From: an uncultured Sporosarcina sp. | GTDB lineage: Bacteria; Bacillota; Bacilli; Bacillales_A; Planococcaceae | Direction: 5' to 3' | Length of the DNA: 32,615 nt | Assembly (NCBI GenBank): GCA_948469885.1 | Contig: CAOKMT010000023.1 | Location: forward strand, 1-32,615 | In this document: one piece after another, positions 25,425-32,399 of the stretch | Layout: each line of letters opens with the position of its first letter | How positions within the stretch are numbered: position 1 is the stretch's first letter | Program-made: the position numbers and the translations under genes | Notes under the pieces: model-generated | The model's input: only the letters and a program-made list of their open reading frames with translations | Database searches by the model: none | Told to the model about the DNA's origin: nothing

Positions 25425-26150
25425 CTAATCTTTCCTTCCCGCGATTTTATGATAAAGAGACATGACGGCCCAAACAGCAGTTGGGAGAGTTATTGCTCCA
25501 GCTACCATAAATGTTAAGAGGCTAATTGTGGGGTCGTTGTCTGCAGTACCGACAAATAACAAAAGAATCGCCACGATTAATAAGATAAGGAATGGTATAG
25601 CTTTCACTAAATTGACTAATCCCTTTCTCCCTTCTACCTTCCATTTGTTACTGTATGTCATCATGATCGTCCATGCTATTGGGAGAGCAATGATGCTAAG
25701 AAACGTAGCCGCTACAATAAGTAATGATTCTAATATACCAGCGCTTATTATGGCACCAACCCATGTGAATGCTGTTATGAATGCAAGCGGGATTGCCAAT
25801 TTCATCATCGAATTACTCGAGTTTCTATACTTTTCGCTCCTCGTTTCACGGTCCGTATAAATCGGTTTTGTGCCAGGGTGTGCTCGAAATAAATGAATAT
25901 CTCCTTCTGAGGCAATATGCGACCATCCAGAAGATGAAAAAAGGTTAAAGTATTCTTCTTCATCCTCTTTTAATGAACGATAATCCACACTGTAGATATA
26001 ATCTGAGCAATCCCCTTTTACAAGCGTATATCCCATCAACTTAAAATCATTGACATGCCAACCCTTCAAAGAAAATCGGCGTAATTTATCCATATCCTTA
26101 TCCTCGGAAAATGCTAATCCACCGGACATTATATACTTCGTTTGTCTCAT
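25425..26150 (-). CDS. DUF2812 domain membrane protein, second copy
   Basis: A 241-residue DUF2812 protein. The soluble N-terminal domain (LRRFSLKGWHVNDFKLMGYTLVKGDCSDY, YFNLFSSSGWSHIASEGDIHLFRAHPGTKPIYTD shown in parts) spans about 110 residues. Four membrane spans follow (near 117-140, 142-165, 180-202 and 210-232), twice as many as in the copy at 15672-16241. The ATG overlaps the stop of the PadR gene (ATGA) and has GGAGGGGGAAG upstream. Role unknown; PadR linkage suggests response to a membrane-active compound, by analogy only. Confidence 0.85.
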   Translation of the reverse strand: MRQTKYIMSGGLAFSEDKDMDKLRRFSLKGWHVNDFKLMGYTLVKGDCSDYIYSVDYRSLKEDEEEYFNLFSSSGWSHIASEGDIHLFRAHPGTKPIYTDRETRSEKYRNSSNSMMKLAIPLAFITAFTWVGAIISAGILESLLIVAATFLSIIALPIAWTIMMTYSNKWKVEGRKGLVNLVKAIPFLILLIVAILLLFVGTADNDPTISLLTFMVAGAITLPTAVWAVMSLYHKIAGRKD

Positions 26151-26464
26151 TCTTCCCCCTCCTCCAACCTTGTTTCTGCTAATTGGATCATCAGTTTTCT
26201 GATCTTCACGTCTTCTTCTAAAATTTCTAGCCCCTTTTCAGTAAGCAGATAAACTTTACGCCTTGAATCCGACCAATCATGCAAATAAATCCACTCTTGT
26301 TTTAATAACTTTTTTATAATTGTGTACATTGAAGCAGGCCCTATAGTAATTGCGCCCTTTGTTGTTTCTTCAATCAAGCTCATGATTGCATAACCATGTC
26401 TTGGTTTAGTTAAAGCAGCCATAATATAAAACATGGAATCCGTTATTTGTTCCGTTTTCTTCAA
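26147..26464 (-). CDS. PadR family transcriptional regulator, second copy
   Basis: A 105-residue PadR repressor: EQITDSMFYIMAALTKPRHGYAIMSLIEETTKGAI is the family's helix-turn-helix, followed by IGPASMYTIIKKLLKQEWIYL and RRKVYLLTEKGLEILEED. The start is a TTG at 26464 preceded by GAAGGTGATGGA. It is paired with the DUF2812 gene through a 4-bp overlap. The upstream 26490-26574 contains three copies of one operator, one lying exactly in the promoter spacer, so strong autorepression is expected. It is about the same length as, but clearly diverged from, the PadR at 16228-16545. Confidence 0.92.
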   Translation of the reverse strand: MKKTEQITDSMFYIMAALTKPRHGYAIMSLIEETTKGAITIGPASMYTIIKKLLKQEWIYLHDWSDSRRKVYLLTEKGLEILEEDVKIRKLMIQLAETRLEEGEE

Positions 26465-26688: not shown

Positions 26689-28809
26689 TCAATCCATTTT
26701 CCTCGGCCAGAAACTCCACTTTCCAAGCTTGATTAAAATCGCTGGAATTAAAAGCGGTCGTACAATGAACGTATCGATCAAAATCCCGAGCGCCATGATC
26801 ATCCCAAATAGTTTCAACTCGTAAAGCGGCATTGTCGCTAAGACAAGGAATGTTGCTGCGAGAATGAGCCCTGCGGAACTGATGACGCCGCCTGTTCTTT
26901 CCACACCTCGTCGAACTGCATCTTCAAATGGCATCACTTTCAATTCTTCCCGGATTCTTGCGATTAACATAATCGAATAATCGACGCCAAGTGCAATCAG
27001 AAAGACAAATGAATAAAGTGGCATCCGGTAACTAATCGCATCAAGGTCTAAAAATACTTTAAACAAGTAAATCGATAAACCAAATGTAGCCGCGTATGAT
27101 AATAAGATTGTTCCCATCATATAAATCGGCGCAATCACAGAACGCGTTTGAAGCCCTAACATAATCGTAATGAGGAATGTCATCAGCACCATGACAAGTG
27201 TCGTATCCCGCTTATTAATGTCTCGTAAATCAGCATTCTTCGCTGTTTCTCCGGCGATCAATAGCTCTGTGCCTTCAAGCCCAGTAGCTTTCAATAATGA
27301 CTCGCCCTCATTACGAATTTCAAGGACTGTATCGAAAGCATTGACATCGTATGGATTGCCCTCAAATGTCAATGAGAATTTGGCACTTTTTTTATCTTCA
27401 GAGAGCGGATTGCCACGAGTCGACGCATCTTCAACACCCTCAATCCCATTAATTCCATCAACGACCGTTTGTAAACCTTCAGCATCTAACTCCTGATCGG
27501 AAACAAATAACAATGTCCCTGGCGCTAAACTTCCCGGAGAAAATGATTCCGACAACCGTTCATAGCCTACCCGCGAAGAGAGATCTTCCGGGAACGAGTC
27601 GATTAAGTCATAGGATTCTTCCATGTTTGTCACATTCCAAGTTCCAAGTAAAAGCAGAAGCGTAATCGGAACCATGAAAAGGACAGGGCGTTTTGTAACT
27701 GTATTTGCAATTTTACCCCAGATTGATTTCTTTTCCTTCGTCTCTTCACCGTATTTTGGAATGATCGGCCAAAACGCTTTTCTTCCAATGACCGCAAAGA
27801 GTGCCGGGAGCAATGTTAAACCTGCGATCAACATTGTCGCCGCTGCAATGACAAAAGCGGGCGCAAAGTTTCGATACGGTGCGTAAATCGTGAAAAATAA
27901 TGTAGCAACACCGAGCACAATCGTACTGCCGCTAAAGAAAATCGGCTCCCTTACATGCCGCATCGTTTCCCGCATCGCATCGTGTACCGATTCATGCCGT
28001 TTTAACTCCTCGCGATAACGTGAAAAGATGAGCAATGAGTAATCCGTGACAACTGCAAACAATAAAATCGTCATAATCGACAGCGCTTGGCTTTCAACTG
28101 TAAATAACCCTGCGGATGCTGACAAACCGATCACCCGGTCCACAACCGCATACACAATCGCCGCTGCAACAAGCGGGATTAGCGTTAGAAGCGGTGAACG
28201 GTAAATGACAAGCAGCAAAATCAAAATAATCCCGATCGTCGACAACAACAGCACGACATCCGCACGACTGAACAGCTCAATCGCATCAGCCGCAATCGCT
28301 GCGGGTCCCGTCCAAGACAACTCGACATCTGATTCTACCTGTTTAGAAACTTTATCTTTCATTGTGCCAATTAAATCATGTAACTCGCTGCCTTCTAATC
28401 CTTCAGGCATTGTAATCGGGACAAAAAATGTTTTTTCATCGTCCGAAAGAAAGGCTTCTAAATGATTCGCGTCTAAGTTCGCGATCGGAGGAAGTTCGAT
28501 TTCACCAAAAGGTGTCTCCGTCTCCACCGTCGCAAGTGCTGCCGTGAATTCTAAAATTTCCGCTTCCGTTAACCCCTCTTCTTTATGAAGGACTGAAAAT
28601 AACGGCATTCCCCCGTCTTGCGGAGAATGTTCTTCTATTTGCCGATCCGCAATAATCGAAGCAGCATCCGCCGGTAATCCCGCGTCTTTATTCGACTGTG
28701 CAAATTCCTTCGCGCCTGGTGCAAGCCCCGACAAAATGACTGTTAACGCAAGCCAGGCAACGATAAACGTCCACCATAACCGTTTGCCTTTCAACTTACC
28801 TTTTTCCAT
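26689..28809 (-). CDS. MMPL family RND-type exporter
   Basis: A 706-residue MMPL transporter. After an N-terminal span (LWWTFIVAWLALTVILSGLA) comes an extracellular domain of ~135 residues and a block of about five spans, then a second span-domain-spans half, the usual 12-helix layout. The two proton-relay-like signatures are FAVVTDYSLLIFSRYREEL and IALGVDYSIMLIARIREEL, each with the D-Y pair expected. It is similar to YdfJ/YdgH-type proteins in size and layout, which export lipids or toxic compounds. It starts one base inside the stop of the preceding small membrane-protein gene (TAATG). The shared promoter has an HssR-like box, so heme or a heme-related compound is my inferred substrate. 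Confidence 0.9.
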   Translation of the reverse strand: MEKGKLKGKRLWWTFIVAWLALTVILSGLAPGAKEFAQSNKDAGLPADAASIIADRQIEEHSPQDGGMPLFSVLHKEEGLTEAEILEFTAALATVETETPFGEIELPPIANLDANHLEAFLSDDEKTFFVPITMPEGLEGSELHDLIGTMKDKVSKQVESDVELSWTGPAAIAADAIELFSRADVVLLLSTIGIILILLLVIYRSPLLTLIPLVAAAIVYAVVDRVIGLSASAGLFTVESQALSIMTILLFAVVTDYSLLIFSRYREELKRHESVHDAMRETMRHVREPIFFSGSTIVLGVATLFFTIYAPYRNFAPAFVIAAATMLIAGLTLLPALFAVIGRKAFWPIIPKYGEETKEKKSIWGKIANTVTKRPVLFMVPITLLLLLGTWNVTNMEESYDLIDSFPEDLSSRVGYERLSESFSPGSLAPGTLLFVSDQELDAEGLQTVVDGINGIEGVEDASTRGNPLSEDKKSAKFSLTFEGNPYDVNAFDTVLEIRNEGESLLKATGLEGTELLIAGETAKNADLRDINKRDTTLVMVLMTFLITIMLGLQTRSVIAPIYMMGTILLSYAATFGLSIYLFKVFLDLDAISYRMPLYSFVFLIALGVDYSIMLIARIREELKVMPFEDAVRRGVERTGGVISSAGLILAATFLVLATMPLYELKLFGMIMALGILIDTFIVRPLLIPAILIKLGKWSFWPRKMD

Positions 28810-29207
28810 TATCGTTTCCCTTCTTTTTCAGTAAGGAATGTGACGATGACAAACAATGCAAAGCTGACAAGCAAAATCGTTCCGCCTACGATATAAAGAA
28901 TAAGAGACAATGTTGTATTGACATTAAACGGTTGCAAAAATTGTAACCACATACCAGCCGTCAATCCGATCGCACCGATAATCGCTGTCCATCCGTGAAA
29001 GGTGATCAGTTTCTTGGCCCGCACTTTATAAATTTTGTAAAAGACACCCCACGCGAACATGGACAGCCAACCAACTAACAAAATATGTGCGTGAATTGGC
29101 CGGAATGCATATGAACCCGCCCCTGCCATATGGGACCCCAACACCGTTCCGATCAAACCAAAGATTGCTGAAATGCGAATAAGTCGCAAACTCCATTTTT
29201 CTTGCAT
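28809..29207 (-). CDS. Small membrane protein resembling heme-copper oxidase subunit I helices
   Basis: A 132-residue protein with four membrane spans (about 9-30, 38-58, 69-90 and 98-124). RPIHAHILLVGWLSMFAWGVFY (given as RPIHAHILLVGW then LSMFAWGVFY) resembles the second helix of cbb3/NorB-type oxidase subunit I, where a His ligates heme. His26, His39, His41 and His71 are candidates. It is far too short to be an oxidase and lacks the binuclear-centre helices. The ATG is preceded by GGGAGGAATTTTAC. It is the first gene of the MMPL operon, behind an HssR-like box, which makes heme binding or handling plausible. I do not know a characterised homologue. Confidence 0.7.
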   Translation of the reverse strand: MQEKWSLRLIRISAIFGLIGTVLGSHMAGAGSYAFRPIHAHILLVGWLSMFAWGVFYKIYKVRAKKLITFHGWTAIIGAIGLTAGMWLQFLQPFNVNTTLSLILYIVGGTILLVSFALFVIVTFLTEKEGKR

Positions 29208-29226
29208 GTAAAATTCCTCCCGTGTT

Positions 29227-29276
29227 GTTCATGTTATATCTTCATGTTAAATACCCAACATGAACGGAAGATGAAC
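29227..29276 (-). promoter_or_regulatory. HssR-like box and promoter of the MMPL operon
   Basis: On the minus strand GTTCATCTT-CC-GTTCATGTT (complement of 29257-29276) is a direct repeat of 9-2-9 layout, like the S. aureus HssR site GTTCATATT-N2-GTTCATATT, with one change per half. TATAAC (29233-29238) is a probable -10, 18 bp from the box, and no proper -35 is present, as expected for an activated promoter. Two more half-sites lie on the plus strand, GTTCATGTT at 29227-29235 and CTTCATGTT at 29240-29248, over the -10. Confidence 0.7.
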
Positions 29277-29363
29277 TAGACATTACAAATTCAACTGGAA
29301 AGCACTCCTCATACTACTTCACAACACAAAATTTATTTGAGGTCTCAAAAATTACTATATGTG

Positions 29364-29398
29364 GAAATAAAAAAAGAGTGCCTGGTCTGCACTCTCCT
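29364..29398 (-). terminator. Terminator of the yihY-hssRS operon
   Basis: AGAGTGC (29375-29381) pairs with GCACTCT (29389-29395); on the minus strand it is followed by a run of T residues. It separates the two-component operon from the MMPL operon downstream. Confidence 0.85.
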
Positions 29399-29476
29399 TT
29401 ACGTTAAGCGATAATAATCTTTAATTAAATACGCTCCTAAGTCTTCTGACAACGATAAACAGAAGAAGCACGAAAA

Positions 29477-30856
29477 TTACCCAATCGGTAAAAAGACTGT
29501 AAAAGTTGTACCTTCGCCTTTCTTACTAACGACGTCCACCGTTCCCCCATGTAGCTTTACAACTTGTTGAACGATCGCCAAACCAAGTCCAGTCCCTCCG
29601 ATTTCACGCGTTCTTGAATCATCGACCCGATAAAAACGGTCAAAAATCCGCGTTATACTTTTTTCATCCATCCCGATACCATTATCCTGAACAGTCACTT
29701 TCACTTGGTTTTCATATACGGTCAATCCGATGTCTATCTCTCCGTCAACGTCTGTATACTTCAATGCATTGGACACAAGGTTTTCCCACACCTTTTCCAG
29801 AAACGCAGGATCTCCTGTCATACTCACTTCATCCAGGTCCATCGACAAAGACATATTCTTCTCTGCTAGTAACCACCTATACTTTCGGATGCTCTCTTTT
29901 AATTGCTCGTCTAACCGAAATCGCTTCCTTTCCAACGGAGAAACAAGTTGGTCTAGCGATGTCAAAAGTAAAAGCTGTTGCGTCAATGAAGACAGTCGTT
30001 CAGTTTCCGCCTGAATGACATTCGCGTAACTTTTTCGAGAAGCCTCTGTCAGCTCATCTGCCGCCAACAGGTCCGCGTATCCTTTAATATTCAAAAGAGG
30101 AGATTGAAAATCATGCGACACATCACTAATGAACTCTTTACGCATCCGATCATTCTCATCCAATCGCTCCGTCATTTGAAGAAAACTTTGCGCCAGTTGA
30201 CCGATCTCATCCTGTCGATGAATATGCAGTTCTCCTGTAAACTGTTCTTCCCCGACTTTTTTTGTTGCGCGCGTCAACTCCGTAATTGGATCGATTAGCT
30301 TTTTCGCGACAATCAGCATTGCGAGTAAACTGATCACCGTCATAATGACGACCATACCAGCTAAAAGAAAATGTACTTCGGTGAAAAGCATTTTAATATC
30401 CGGTCGTAGGAAGAGCGCATAACCTTTCCCTTCATAAGTAAAAGGGACACCGACTGTGTTTGCTGACTCATCCGAGAAAAATCCAGTGACAAATGTTTCA
30501 CTCGGAAGATTCCGCATACCATGGTAAGCTTCACCACGTAACACGTGATCTATCGATTGTTCTGAAAGGTTATTGTCACGGAAAGGGGCTCCGTATAAAC
30601 TTATTTCTTTTTGTTCATCCACTACATATAGCTTATACCCAGCAGCAGCTTGAGTGCGCAAGTATGCTTCAAGGGAGATCGCTTCGTTGGTATCAATAAA
30701 AGCCGCCATGCTTTCTGCGATTGCCATGTTCTTTTCATCATTTCTTCCTTTTAACACTTGGTGATAATATGTATTCACACTTAAAAATGCAACCAATCCA
30801 CTGATCACCATAATCGACAAGGTGATGATGACAAGCTTTGCGTAAAGGGACCTCAT
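29477..30856 (-). CDS. hssS: Heme-sensor histidine kinase HssS-like
   Basis: A 459-residue membrane histidine kinase. Spans are at about 8-30 and 161-185, enclosing a sensor domain of ~130 residues. That domain carries the pattern of S. aureus HssS: VNTYYHQ…YGAPFRDNNLS…YHGM…FVTGFF…NTVGVPF…FLRPDI. A HAMP domain (~186-240), the phospho-acceptor His248 in DVSHDFQSPL, the N box ENLVSNALKYT, and G boxes DNGIGMD and GGTGLGLAIV complete it. The H box (SHDFQSPL rather than SHEIKTPL) differs from HssS as I recall it. The start overlaps the response regulator stop (TAATG). Inferred to sense heme-induced stress and phosphorylate the co-encoded regulator. Confidence 0.85.
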   Translation of the reverse strand: MRSLYAKLVIITLSIMVISGLVAFLSVNTYYHQVLKGRNDEKNMAIAESMAAFIDTNEAISLEAYLRTQAAAGYKLYVVDEQKEISLYGAPFRDNNLSEQSIDHVLRGEAYHGMRNLPSETFVTGFFSDESANTVGVPFTYEGKGYALFLRPDIKMLFTEVHFLLAGMVVIMTVISLLAMLIVAKKLIDPITELTRATKKVGEEQFTGELHIHRQDEIGQLAQSFLQMTERLDENDRMRKEFISDVSHDFQSPLLNIKGYADLLAADELTEASRKSYANVIQAETERLSSLTQQLLLLTSLDQLVSPLERKRFRLDEQLKESIRKYRWLLAEKNMSLSMDLDEVSMTGDPAFLEKVWENLVSNALKYTDVDGEIDIGLTVYENQVKVTVQDNGIGMDEKSITRIFDRFYRVDDSRTREIGGTGLGLAIVQQVVKLHGGTVDVVSKKGEGTTFTVFLPIG

Positions 30857-31527
30857 TACTCAGCAACCTCAAGCTTATAACCAACACCACGAACCGTAGC
30901 AATGACGACCTGATCTGTCAGCTTCTCTAATTTGTTCCGGACTCGCCTAATATGCACATTCAACGTCTGTTCATCGCCTTCATAATCGTATCCCCATACA
31001 CGTTCTAAAAGAATCTCCCGCGTAAAAACAGCATTGGGGCGAGACGCCAATACCGACAAGAGTTCAAACTCTTTTAAGGGAAGCAACAAAACTTTTTTTC
31101 CAACAGACACTTCGTAACTTTGCCGGTTAATTTGTAGCGGACCTGCTTGAAGAAAAGCATCAACCGCCTTATCATATCTGCGCAAGATCGCATTGATCCG
31201 AAATTGTAATTCCTTTGGCTCAAAAGGTTTTACAACGTAATCATCTGAGCCTGACAGAAACCCCTTCTCTTTATCCTCCAGTTCGCCTTTCGCGGTAAGC
31301 AATAAAACAGGAATATCTGTTTCCGAACGAATTTTCTTCGTCAACGTATAACCATCCATACCCGGCATCATCACATCGACAACCGCTAAATCTGGATAAT
31401 CTGCCTCGATCAACGCCAATGCTTCGAAACCGTTTAATGCTTTTTGAACCGTATATCCCGCCTGCGTCAGCTGAATACTTACAAGTTCCAATATATTCGG
31501 ATCATCATCCACGACAAGTATTTTCAT
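30856..31527 (-). CDS. hssR: OmpR-family response regulator HssR-like
   Basis: A 223-residue OmpR/PhoB-type regulator. The receiver domain has VVDDDP, phospho-acceptor Asp51 in VVDVMMPGMDG, and Lys100 in YVVKPFEPKEL. The winged helix (FTREILLERVWGYDYEGDEQ, LNVHIRRVRNKLEKL, VRGVGYKLE) closely matches S. aureus HssR as I recall it, including WGYDYEGDE. The frame is open to 31692, but the ATG at 31527 is preceded by AGGAGAGGAT and starts the receiver domain (MKILVVDDDP). The gene begins one base after the yihY stop. Likely binds the direct repeat at 29257-29276. Confidence 0.88.
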   Translation of the reverse strand: MKILVVDDDPNILELVSIQLTQAGYTVQKALNGFEALALIEADYPDLAVVDVMMPGMDGYTLTKKIRSETDIPVLLLTAKGELEDKEKGFLSGSDDYVVKPFEPKELQFRINAILRRYDKAVDAFLQAGPLQINRQSYEVSVGKKVLLLPLKEFELLSVLASRPNAVFTREILLERVWGYDYEGDEQTLNVHIRRVRNKLEKLTDQVVIATVRGVGYKLEVAE

Positions 31528-31528
31528 T

Positions 31529-32350
31529 CTATCCTCTCCTCTTGTGAACAGAAATTTTTCTAAACTCCGCATTGAACAATCCCGACAACAAAAGAATAAC
31601 GGCCGTTGAATAAAACCATAGTACAAGTAAAATGATACCAGACAATTGGCCGTATAACATCGTGTAATCGACTTTGGAGGCATACTTGACAAACCCTAGC
31701 GCAAACACTTGCCAGCCAACCGTGGACAACAATGCACCTGGAAATGCTTCTTTTACGCTCACTTTACCGCTAGGGATCACTTTATAAAACAACAATAAAA
31801 ATGCAAACAAAAACAACGAGCCCATCGTCCACCGTACTGCAAAGCGGATTTGTAGCCAGCCTTCCCACAGTTGGACAGAATTCGTCTGATCGATACCTTG
31901 CTGAATCATTTGCTCGATGAGGGGAAGCAGCAACGAGAGCGGGATAACGCACATAAACAATAGGGTAATCGCCAAATCGCGGAGAAGCACTTTCCAAAAA
32001 GCATACCGACGTTTATACCCATTTGCCAAATCCAGTGAGCGGGCAAGTGATTGCACTGCCACAGAGGATAACCAAAACACCATGATTAAGCTGATATATA
32101 TCATATTTCCTTGGTTTTTATTTAAAATCATCCATACATTTCTTTCAATGAGCGCAAACACTTCTACTGGGGTAAAAGGCTGCAAAAAATCCAATAACAT
32201 CTCTTCATTGGCTATGAATAAGCTAAGCAAAGATAAGATAAAAATTAAAAACGGCAACATAGACACTAAAAGATAATAGGCCGTTTGTGCAGCTTGATCG
32301 AAAAAACGTTCTTTGAAAAAACGATCCATCACCCGTTTCACAATCAGCAA
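31529..32350 (-). CDS. YihY/BrkB family membrane protein
   Basis: A ~273-residue YihY (BrkB, formerly mis-assigned RNase BN) protein with six membrane spans, including SMLPFLIFILSLLSLFI, MIYISLIMVFWLSSVAVQSLARSL in the middle and GIILLVLWFYSTAVILLLSGLFNAEF near the end, a family signature. The frame opens at GTG 32386, but that lies upstream of the TATAAT at 32370-32375, so it cannot be translated from that promoter. AGAGGGGGTGG ahead of the TTG at 32350 decides the start; GTG 32341 is also possible. It heads an operon with the HssRS-like genes. The family's function is unknown. Confidence 0.85.
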   Translation of the reverse strand: MLIVKRVMDRFFKERFFDQAAQTAYYLLVSMLPFLIFILSLLSLFIANEEMLLDFLQPFTPVEVFALIERNVWMILNKNQGNMIYISLIMVFWLSSVAVQSLARSLDLANGYKRRYAFWKVLLRDLAITLLFMCVIPLSLLLPLIEQMIQQGIDQTNSVQLWEGWLQIRFAVRWTMGSLFLFAFLLLFYKVIPSGKVSVKEAFPGALLSTVGWQVFALGFVKYASKVDYTMLYGQLSGIILLVLWFYSTAVILLLSGLFNAEFRKISVHKRRG

Positions 32351-32369
32351 CCACCCACCCCCTCTTTCT

Positions 32370-32399
32370 ATTATATCCTTTAACACAAGAAGTCATGAA
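32370..32399 (-). promoter_or_regulatory. Promoter of the yihY-hssRS operon
   Basis: TATAAT (complement of 32370-32375) is a perfect -10. The hexamer TTCATG 18 bp upstream is a poor -35. The transcript would start near 32363, leaving a very short leader that contains the ribosome-binding site. Confidence 0.55.

Follow-up and report, generated by a model that had tools for sequence, protein, structure and literature searches.

In Staphylococcus aureus, Listeria and Bacillus anthracis, the two-component system HssRS is linked to HrtBA, a heme exporter of the ATP-binding cassette (ABC) class, and the related HitRS of B. anthracis drives another ABC transporter. Here we describe a locus on contig CAOKMT010000023.1 of an uncultured Sporosarcina sp. 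(assembly GCA_948469885.1: 3.59 Mb, 225 contigs, 88.5% complete), of which positions 1 to 32,615, the whole stretch of 32,615 nt that was analysed, are called the window. An HssRS-like pair is followed there by a small membrane protein (SMP) and a transporter of the MMPL/RND (resistance-nodulation-division) superfamily, and the locus is probably a heme-stress response under HssRS in which an MMPL protein has taken over from the usual exporter. No described link between HssRS and an MMPL protein was found in the freely licensed PMC literature, searched by title and abstract start. The minus strand carries all elements, which run from response regulator (RR) through histidine kinase (HK), hairpin, operator and SMP to MMPL, and the open reading frames (ORFs) that an earlier note on this DNA had placed between 26689 and 31527 were recovered at the same coordinates and on the same strand.

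The HssRS-like pair and its operator

The response regulator (30856..31527, minus strand; 223 aa) is an HssR-like member of the OmpR family with Response_reg and Trans_reg_C domains. It shares 45-49% identity with regulators adjoining HrtBA in Staphylococcus-like (family f9) and Listeria-like (f16, genus g21) loci, labels that are inferred from gene layout and kinase numbering only, and 52-60% with other HrtBA-linked regulators. The HssS-like sensor kinase (29477..30856, minus strand; 459 aa) has HAMP, HisKA and HATPase_c domains and, compared with three Staphylococcus-like kinases encoded divergently from HrtBA (L157, L158 and L160), is 35-37% identical over its whole length and 36-41% identical in the sensor part. 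We searched 398 Bacilli genomes with this kinase and followed up the best-scoring part: of 51 kinase loci that do not belong to the core genus set, 50 adjoin HrtB, SMP or MMPL, L173 being the exception (L184 entered this tally from the SMP search, and the MMPL-linked L172 was left out of it). These neighbourhoods, together with a largely kept heme pocket, bear out the earlier match of the sensor to HssS, and they speak against a closer kinship of the kinase with a non-heme family, in a comparison that included no HitRS sequence. As judged from sequence, the window kinase is a homologue of HssS over both its sensor and its catalytic parts.

The heme pocket of S. aureus HssS includes F25, R94, F128, R163 and F165, according to excerpts of PMC11237747. 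These residues stand at exactly the published HssS numbers in three of the seven Staphylococcus-like loci (L157 and L160 among them), and their equivalents in the window kinase are F24, R93, F127, H162 and L164, with three of the four tested pocket residues kept and R163 replaced by H162. The same change to His is found in 13 of 29 HrtB-linked kinases outside the genus, Listeria-like ones included. Across 68 genomes of the genus, position 163 is His in 68/68, R94 and F128 are each present in 68/68 and F25 in 67/68, and the pocket is alike in MMPL species and HrtB species. Heme is very probably the signal. Directly upstream of the regulator lies a BrkB/YihY membrane protein gene (31529-32386, minus strand), which adjoins the regulator in many of the genus loci that were fetched.

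A direct repeat of HssR type, GTTCATCTT-CC-GTTCATGTT, was located by motif scan at 29257..29276 on the minus strand, as the earlier note had claimed, and is the sole copy without mismatches in the 3.59-Mb assembly. The operator is longer than that note had it: promoter alignment and operator match place a third half-site-like element, TGTAAT (29282..29287, minus strand), exactly 11 nt before this box, giving the 31-bp pattern TGTAAT-N5-GTTCATnTT-N2-GTTCATnTT, to which 29257-29287 is a perfect match (expected number, 0). The claim of a -10 element without a -35 also stands, as a -10-like TAACAT lies at 29244..29249 (minus strand) and a sigma-70 scan gives no -35/-10 pair there; the genus promoter alignment has a -10-like TAnnAT 8 nt after the box, and TAngAT is the conserved form at that position over an alignment of 64 genus promoters, the window's included. 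Between the kinase gene and the box is a terminator-like hairpin with a U run (29370..29400, minus strand; fold -13.5 kcal/mol, z -4.4), whose stem appears at 29375-29395 in the output of the terminator/promoter scan, given there on the plus strand, so that SMP and MMPL should depend on a promoter of their own. The gap between kinase and SMP measures 82-95 nt in ten sister genomes, where the box stands close after the kinase stop codon. Downstream of the box in the window, an inverted pair, AACATGAAG-ATAT-AACATGAAC, occupies 29227-29248 (minus strand) and with the neighbouring direct repeat makes four half-sites facing each other; it recurs only partly in sister species.

The next-best copies of the box in the window's genome number 11, one of them on contig C113, and each has 2 mismatches. 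Nine fall inside ORFs, two of these being at the same time upstream of a further ORF, at distances of 105 and 217 nt, and a second HssR target suggested by the box alone was therefore rejected for these nine examined copies. Another lies on contig C122 (locus L050, about 1079-2909), which encodes the nearest paralog of the regulator (52%) with a short-sensor kinase; the two-mismatch repeat GTTTATATT-GA-GTTTATATT is found just upstream of this paralogous regulator.

Across the fetched loci, a few of which overlap, we took the 250 nt ahead of every ORF and counted boxes with no more than 2 mismatches. The box precedes SMP in 71/91 cases, plano-type HrtB in 20/28, Staphylococcus-type HrtB in 14/22 and Listeria-type HrtB in 4/6, and MMPL in 4/37, most MMPL genes coming after SMP. 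It precedes the regulator in 8/123, seven of these being shared divergent boxes of Staphylococcus-like loci, and other ORFs in 9/930, several of which lie on the opposite side of a box that belongs to HrtB or SMP. The reversed motif, used as a control under the same limit, gave 0/91, 0/28, 0/22 and 0/6 for SMP and the three HrtB types in that order, 0/37 for MMPL, 3/123 for the regulator and 1/930 for other ORFs. Among 19 genus HrtB loci, 14 have a box with at most 2 mismatches and three have one with 3 mismatches; in the remaining two (L197 and L201) the box is inside an over-long ORF start.

The additional element stands exactly one 11-nt period before the box in the promoter alignment. Counted in promoters that have a box with at most 2 mismatches, and with at least 5 of 6 letters taken as a match (background 0.6%), TGTAAT is kept in 53/53 genus SMP and 14/15 genus HrtB promoters, in 20/23 further SMP and 5/6 further plano-type HrtB promoters, in 3/3 and 7/8 MMPL promoters, in 7/15 Staphylococcus-type HrtB promoters and in 49/54 titled SMP loci, whose genomes are partly the same as those of the other sets. 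It is absent from the five Listeria-like and all seven Staphylococcus-like (L156-L162) promoters examined. In the SMP promoters of many genus species TGTAA overlaps the kinase stop codon, which alone would suffice to account for its conservation at those promoters; no such overlap exists in the window or at HrtB.

The 31-bp pattern, allowing one mismatch, has 41 matches in 37 of the 398 Bacilli genomes, and its reversed control has 0. Thirty matches have loci and stand before SMP (11), HrtB (15), MMPL (2), a DUF2871 protein (1) and an amino-acid permease (1); the other 11, assigned by coordinates, comprise 3 at SMP, 3 at HrtB, 4 at MMPL and one, in G406, without an assignment. Because the pattern was drawn from promoters of the same set, matches used in training are not independent, and the scan shows how little else matches. 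Taken together, the repeat and its placement make it highly likely that an HssR-type regulator binds this operator. The permease match, in L408, is exact. Three tandem genes in L385 (G006), beside a more distant regulator-kinase pair, each have a GTTCAT repeat of their own lacking TGTAAT; the two that were tested are alpha/beta hydrolases.

Proposed exchange of HrtB and MMPL exporters

The transporter of the window (26689..28809, minus strand; 706 aa) matches PF03176 in two stretches (E 8e-104; 348 bits against a cut-off of 20.5), its nearest solved structures are MmpL4 and MmpL5 (E about 1e-55), and the SMP ORF ends on one base that it has in common with the MMPL ORF. Searched with a profile built from 14 HrtB proteins at a cut-off of 1e-10, the window's 88.5%-complete genome has 0 matches, and none of its 9 FtsX stretches matches HrtB at that level; an intact hrtAB with a better box elsewhere, which would have spoken against the earlier note, did not come to light. 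Downstream of MMPL, a PadR-type regulator and a DUF2812 protein form a separate small gene pair (25425-26464, minus strand).

The two exporters are distributed reciprocally. When an MMPL gene was counted if it lies beside SMP, and HrtB if it is of the plano type, 20 of the 68 genus genomes have MMPL without HrtB, 43 have HrtB without MMPL, 5 have both and none has neither (Fisher p 6e-13, uncorrected for relatedness). Named examples are Sporosarcina jiandibaonis (L299, G003), which carries MMPL and gave no HrtB match, and S. ureae DSM 2281 (L315, G018), in which HrtB is boxed and SMP lacks a neighbouring MMPL. HrtB is thus present in 48/68 genomes, in 43/43 of those without MMPL beside SMP and in 5/25 of those with it. 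The earlier suggestion that MMPL stands instead of HrtAB therefore holds for the window's lineage and not for the genus overall, where HrtB occurs in 48/68 genomes and is boxed in at least 14/19 loci. On the genus kinase tree the state of MMPL requires 7 changes and that of HrtB 9, and a broader kinase tree with 60 rows, from which 15 that were near-duplicates or genus members are omitted, implies at least 5 switches of the linked exporter between HrtB and MMPL. An HrtB fragment containing stops is all that remains of HrtB in G013, an MMPL genome, and MMPL remnants containing stops persist in G015, an HrtB genome, pointing to exporter decay in both directions.

Several genomes called for a decision in this count. 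G022, with a split MMPL, and G051, with one stop, were counted as MMPL-bearing, and G049 as MMPL-less, its boxed MMPL being elsewhere in the genome; in G015, G039 and G057, pieces of MMPL or MMPLs of a more distant kind lie at other places. Five of the 20 MMPL-only genomes (G016, G022, G040, G043 and G062) have only a second FtsX type, which the HrtB profile picks up at about 1e-88 to 1e-106 and which was not counted as HrtB because its three fetched loci L264-L266 are boxless (best 6 mismatches; 5 in the example L192). In these three loci the second type forms an HrtBA-like FtsX-ATPase pair, accompanied in L264 by its own regulator and kinase.

The operator and the exporters occur in several arrangements. 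In 19 fetched genus loci HrtBA is an operon with no neighbouring regulator-kinase pair of the window's family. Eight loci unite HrtB, HrtA, regulator, kinase and SMP, namely L135, L141, L184 and, in Bacillus timonensis, Bacillus sp. HNG and Ureibacillus, L365-L367, L373 and L374; no box with at most 3 mismatches was found at SMP or HrtB in L135 and L184. In Siminovitchia, Bhargavaea, Mesobacillus and Thalassobacillus the order is SMP followed by MMPL. The first gene after the box is MMPL in L357 and in seven loci of the Psychrobacillus type (L338, L339, L341 and L343-L346). Six family f36 genomes (L171, L172 and L393-L396) have the operator between kinase and MMPL and no SMP, and in Psychrobacillus-type and f36 loci it is the complete operator that directly precedes MMPL; an HrtB match was not found in 5 of the 7 family f36 genomes searched. 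Boxed MMPL proteins do not form one clade apart from boxless paralogs, so MMPL sequence alone does not reveal its control. Three Sporosarcina genomes that also have MMPL carry a gene of 525-530 aa under an HssR operator with the variant TGTAAC (L386:5195-6772, L387:3135-4727 and L389:2953-4530); by Pfam the first two encode exporters of the major facilitator superfamily (MFS), and the third is likened to them by size and place.

The small membrane protein and the proposed pathway

The first gene after the operator encodes SMP (28809..29207, minus strand), a membrane protein of 132 aa. It is small and membrane-bound, as the earlier note had it, but not His-rich, with 4 His in 132 aa, among them an invariant His-x-His: H39 and H41, in the motif H39-A-H41, are invariant in 32 aligned relatives. 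The window protein has no Pfam match and no meaningful NCBIfam match. Below the Pfam cut-off, COX1 is matched by two remote relatives, L185 (30% identity; E 7e-7) and L186 (26% identity; E 3e-5), and the HAH of L185 aligns with H345-V-H347 of the cbb3 oxidase subunit CcoN1 (E 0.013), whose H345 and H347 we take to be heme ligands. Heme binding by SMP is moderately likely on the strength of this motif. We rejected SMP as a COX1-type subunit I of heme-copper oxidases, given its 132 aa and lack of a Pfam match of its own, with only the HxH helix in common, by way of remote relatives. We likewise rejected it as a DUF2871 protein, the window protein having no match and 8 of the 32 alignment members only weak ones (best L186, E 0.0018, 18.9 bits against a gathering cut-off of 27.4), and as a relative of seipin, the sole PDB match of the SMP profile (E 0.13-0.27). 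Seven alignment members weakly match DUF3054, at best with E 0.0029. At L424:1593-1988, directly under an HssR operator, lies a protein that truly belongs to DUF2871 (E 3e-42) and is likewise a small membrane protein with HxH; none of the 4 papers that mention DUF2871 is heme-related by title.

We propose that heme at the membrane surface would lodge in the pocket of the kinase, the same pocket as in S. aureus HssS, and that the kinase would phosphorylate the regulator. The latter would bind the three-part operator, which would stand in for the missing -35, and so switch on the SMP-MMPL operon, separated by the terminator from the kinase gene. MMPL, driven by the proton gradient, would then take over the part of HrtBA and clear the membrane of heme or of a heme-like porphyrin, and SMP may hold or hand over membrane heme through its His-x-His in the manner of heme-copper oxidases. 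Export of heme by MMPL is likewise moderately likely. The operator could serve HrtBA or MMPL as exporter and, in three genomes, perhaps an MFS pump as well. A wider generalisation, for which we see not quite an even chance, is that HssR governs a modular heme-defence regulon of Bacillales, in which ABC (HrtBA), RND/MMPL and, in some Sporosarcina, MFS exporters are interchangeable behind a three-part operator, and small His-x-His membrane proteins (SMP and, in one family f3 genome, DUF2871) take up membrane heme and hand it to the exporter that the genome has.

Several findings weigh against this pathway. Outside the genus, R94, a propionate anchor of HssS, is present in 2 of 10 MMPL-linked kinases as against 27 of 29 HrtB-linked ones, the replacements being Lys (3), Asn (2), Asp (2) and Ser (1). 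Four of the ten (L144, L148, L149 and L155) have neither MMPL nor SMP preceded by a box of at most 2 mismatches; at the R94 position the other six have Arg, Lys and Asn, two of each. The loss of R94 and the boxless loci suggest that the ligand may be a different one in some MMPL systems. For the most part, MMPL transporters carry lipids or siderophores. Five genus genomes (G004, G006, G011, G053 and G064) carry both exporters, a tree-based test of complementarity was not significant (about 3 pairs opposite, 0 same; sign test p 0.25), and the window's genome is 88.5% complete. The homology of SMP to COX1 is indirect and weak, the DUF2871 and DUF3054 matches being of like strength. Our chief doubt is the ligand, in view of the envelope-stress precedent of HitRS and the frequent loss of R94 outside the genus.

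The same circuit could serve another membrane lipophile as signal and substrate, for instance fatty acids with antimicrobial action, a compound acting on the envelope or a product of lipid damage. The transporter would then be an exporter like FarE, itself an MMPL-type protein, or one for envelope stress, much as HitRS is a stress-sensing relative of HssRS. FarE/FarR gives S. aureus resistance to fatty acids (excerpts of PMC12671165), and excerpts of PMC3968170 describe the HitRS direct repeat as keeping the four nucleotides needed for HssR, with HitRS cross-talking with HssRS and answering envelope-acting compounds; R94 losses beyond the genus, in 8 of 10 kinases linked to MMPL, point the same way. 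Within the genus, however, the near-invariance of F25, R94 and F128 in MMPL and HrtB species alike, the identical operator before HrtB in sister species and the sharing of SMP between HrtBA and MMPL loci favour heme, and we regard a different lipophile as unlikely. It is more doubtful still that HrtBA is encoded in sequence which the assembly lacks, with MMPL an addition and not a replacement: an 88.5%-complete assembly and five genus genomes with both exporters would allow it, yet thirteen other genus genomes, 90-100% complete, have MMPL and no HrtB match, among them the single-contig G005, G038, G054 and G059, G035 in two contigs and G034 in five. Slightly less probable again is that heme defence falls to SMP, with MMPL as a passenger whose cargo is unrelated. 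SMP does come first in the genus operon, 43/68 genus genomes have no MMPL beside SMP, and orphan SMPs are boxed (L176, L178 and L181); against this, MMPL leads under the operator in the seven Psychrobacillus-type loci, does without SMP in the six family f36 genomes, and mirrors the absence of HrtB. That MMPL imports heme, as MmpL3 and MmpL11 are described to do in excerpts of PMC7516205, is barely credible, since MMPL replaces an exporter under an excess-heme operator and a toxicity response that raised uptake would be odd.

If an HssRS response with an exchanged exporter is the correct reading, HssRS heme export in Gram-positives would not depend on HrtBA, the ABC pump: the same sensor could command an MMPL protein driven by protons, in a soil genus whose sister species carry one, the other or both. 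MMPL proteins would gain a role in heme export, SMP would become a candidate heme-binding family, and the 31-bp operator would offer a means to read the heme regulon from sequence in many Bacillales genomes.

Comparison with described systems

Mycobacterial MmpL3 and MmpL11, with Rv0203, are likewise heme-linked MMPL proteins, but in excerpts of PMC7516205 they are proposed for heme uptake, not export, and are under other control. Heme also induces a membrane heme store (HsmA) or non-Hrt exporters (the MFS protein HatT, PefAB) in the HsmRA and HatRT systems of Clostridioides difficile and the PefAB/PefCD systems of Streptococcus agalactiae; in excerpts of PMC12670364 and PMC2858704 these differ in being governed by one-component regulators of the MarR/TetR type and in having no MMPL protein. 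FarER of S. aureus resembles the window in that a Gram-positive efflux pump, FarE, which is RND-type according to excerpts of PMC10019231, clears a membrane-active host compound, whereas its regulator FarR belongs to the TetR family, is linked to fatty acids and is not part of a two-component system. HitRS-HitPQ of B. anthracis is closer, with an HssRS-related pair and a similar direct repeat before a transporter, but HitRS answers envelope stress and drives an ABC transporter; this comparison is by description only, from excerpts of PMC3968170. With HssRS-HrtBA itself the window shares a regulator-kinase pair of about equal length, the HssS heme pocket (three of four residues) and a tandem GTTCATnTT operator before the exporter operon, and it differs in its exporter, MMPL/RND and not ABC, in the extra SMP gene, in the added TGTAAT and in R163 becoming His, as in Listeria-like kinases. 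The locus would thus work like HssRS-HrtBA, carrying the sequence features of the HssRS family that were tested, with a target that departs from the definition of that system.

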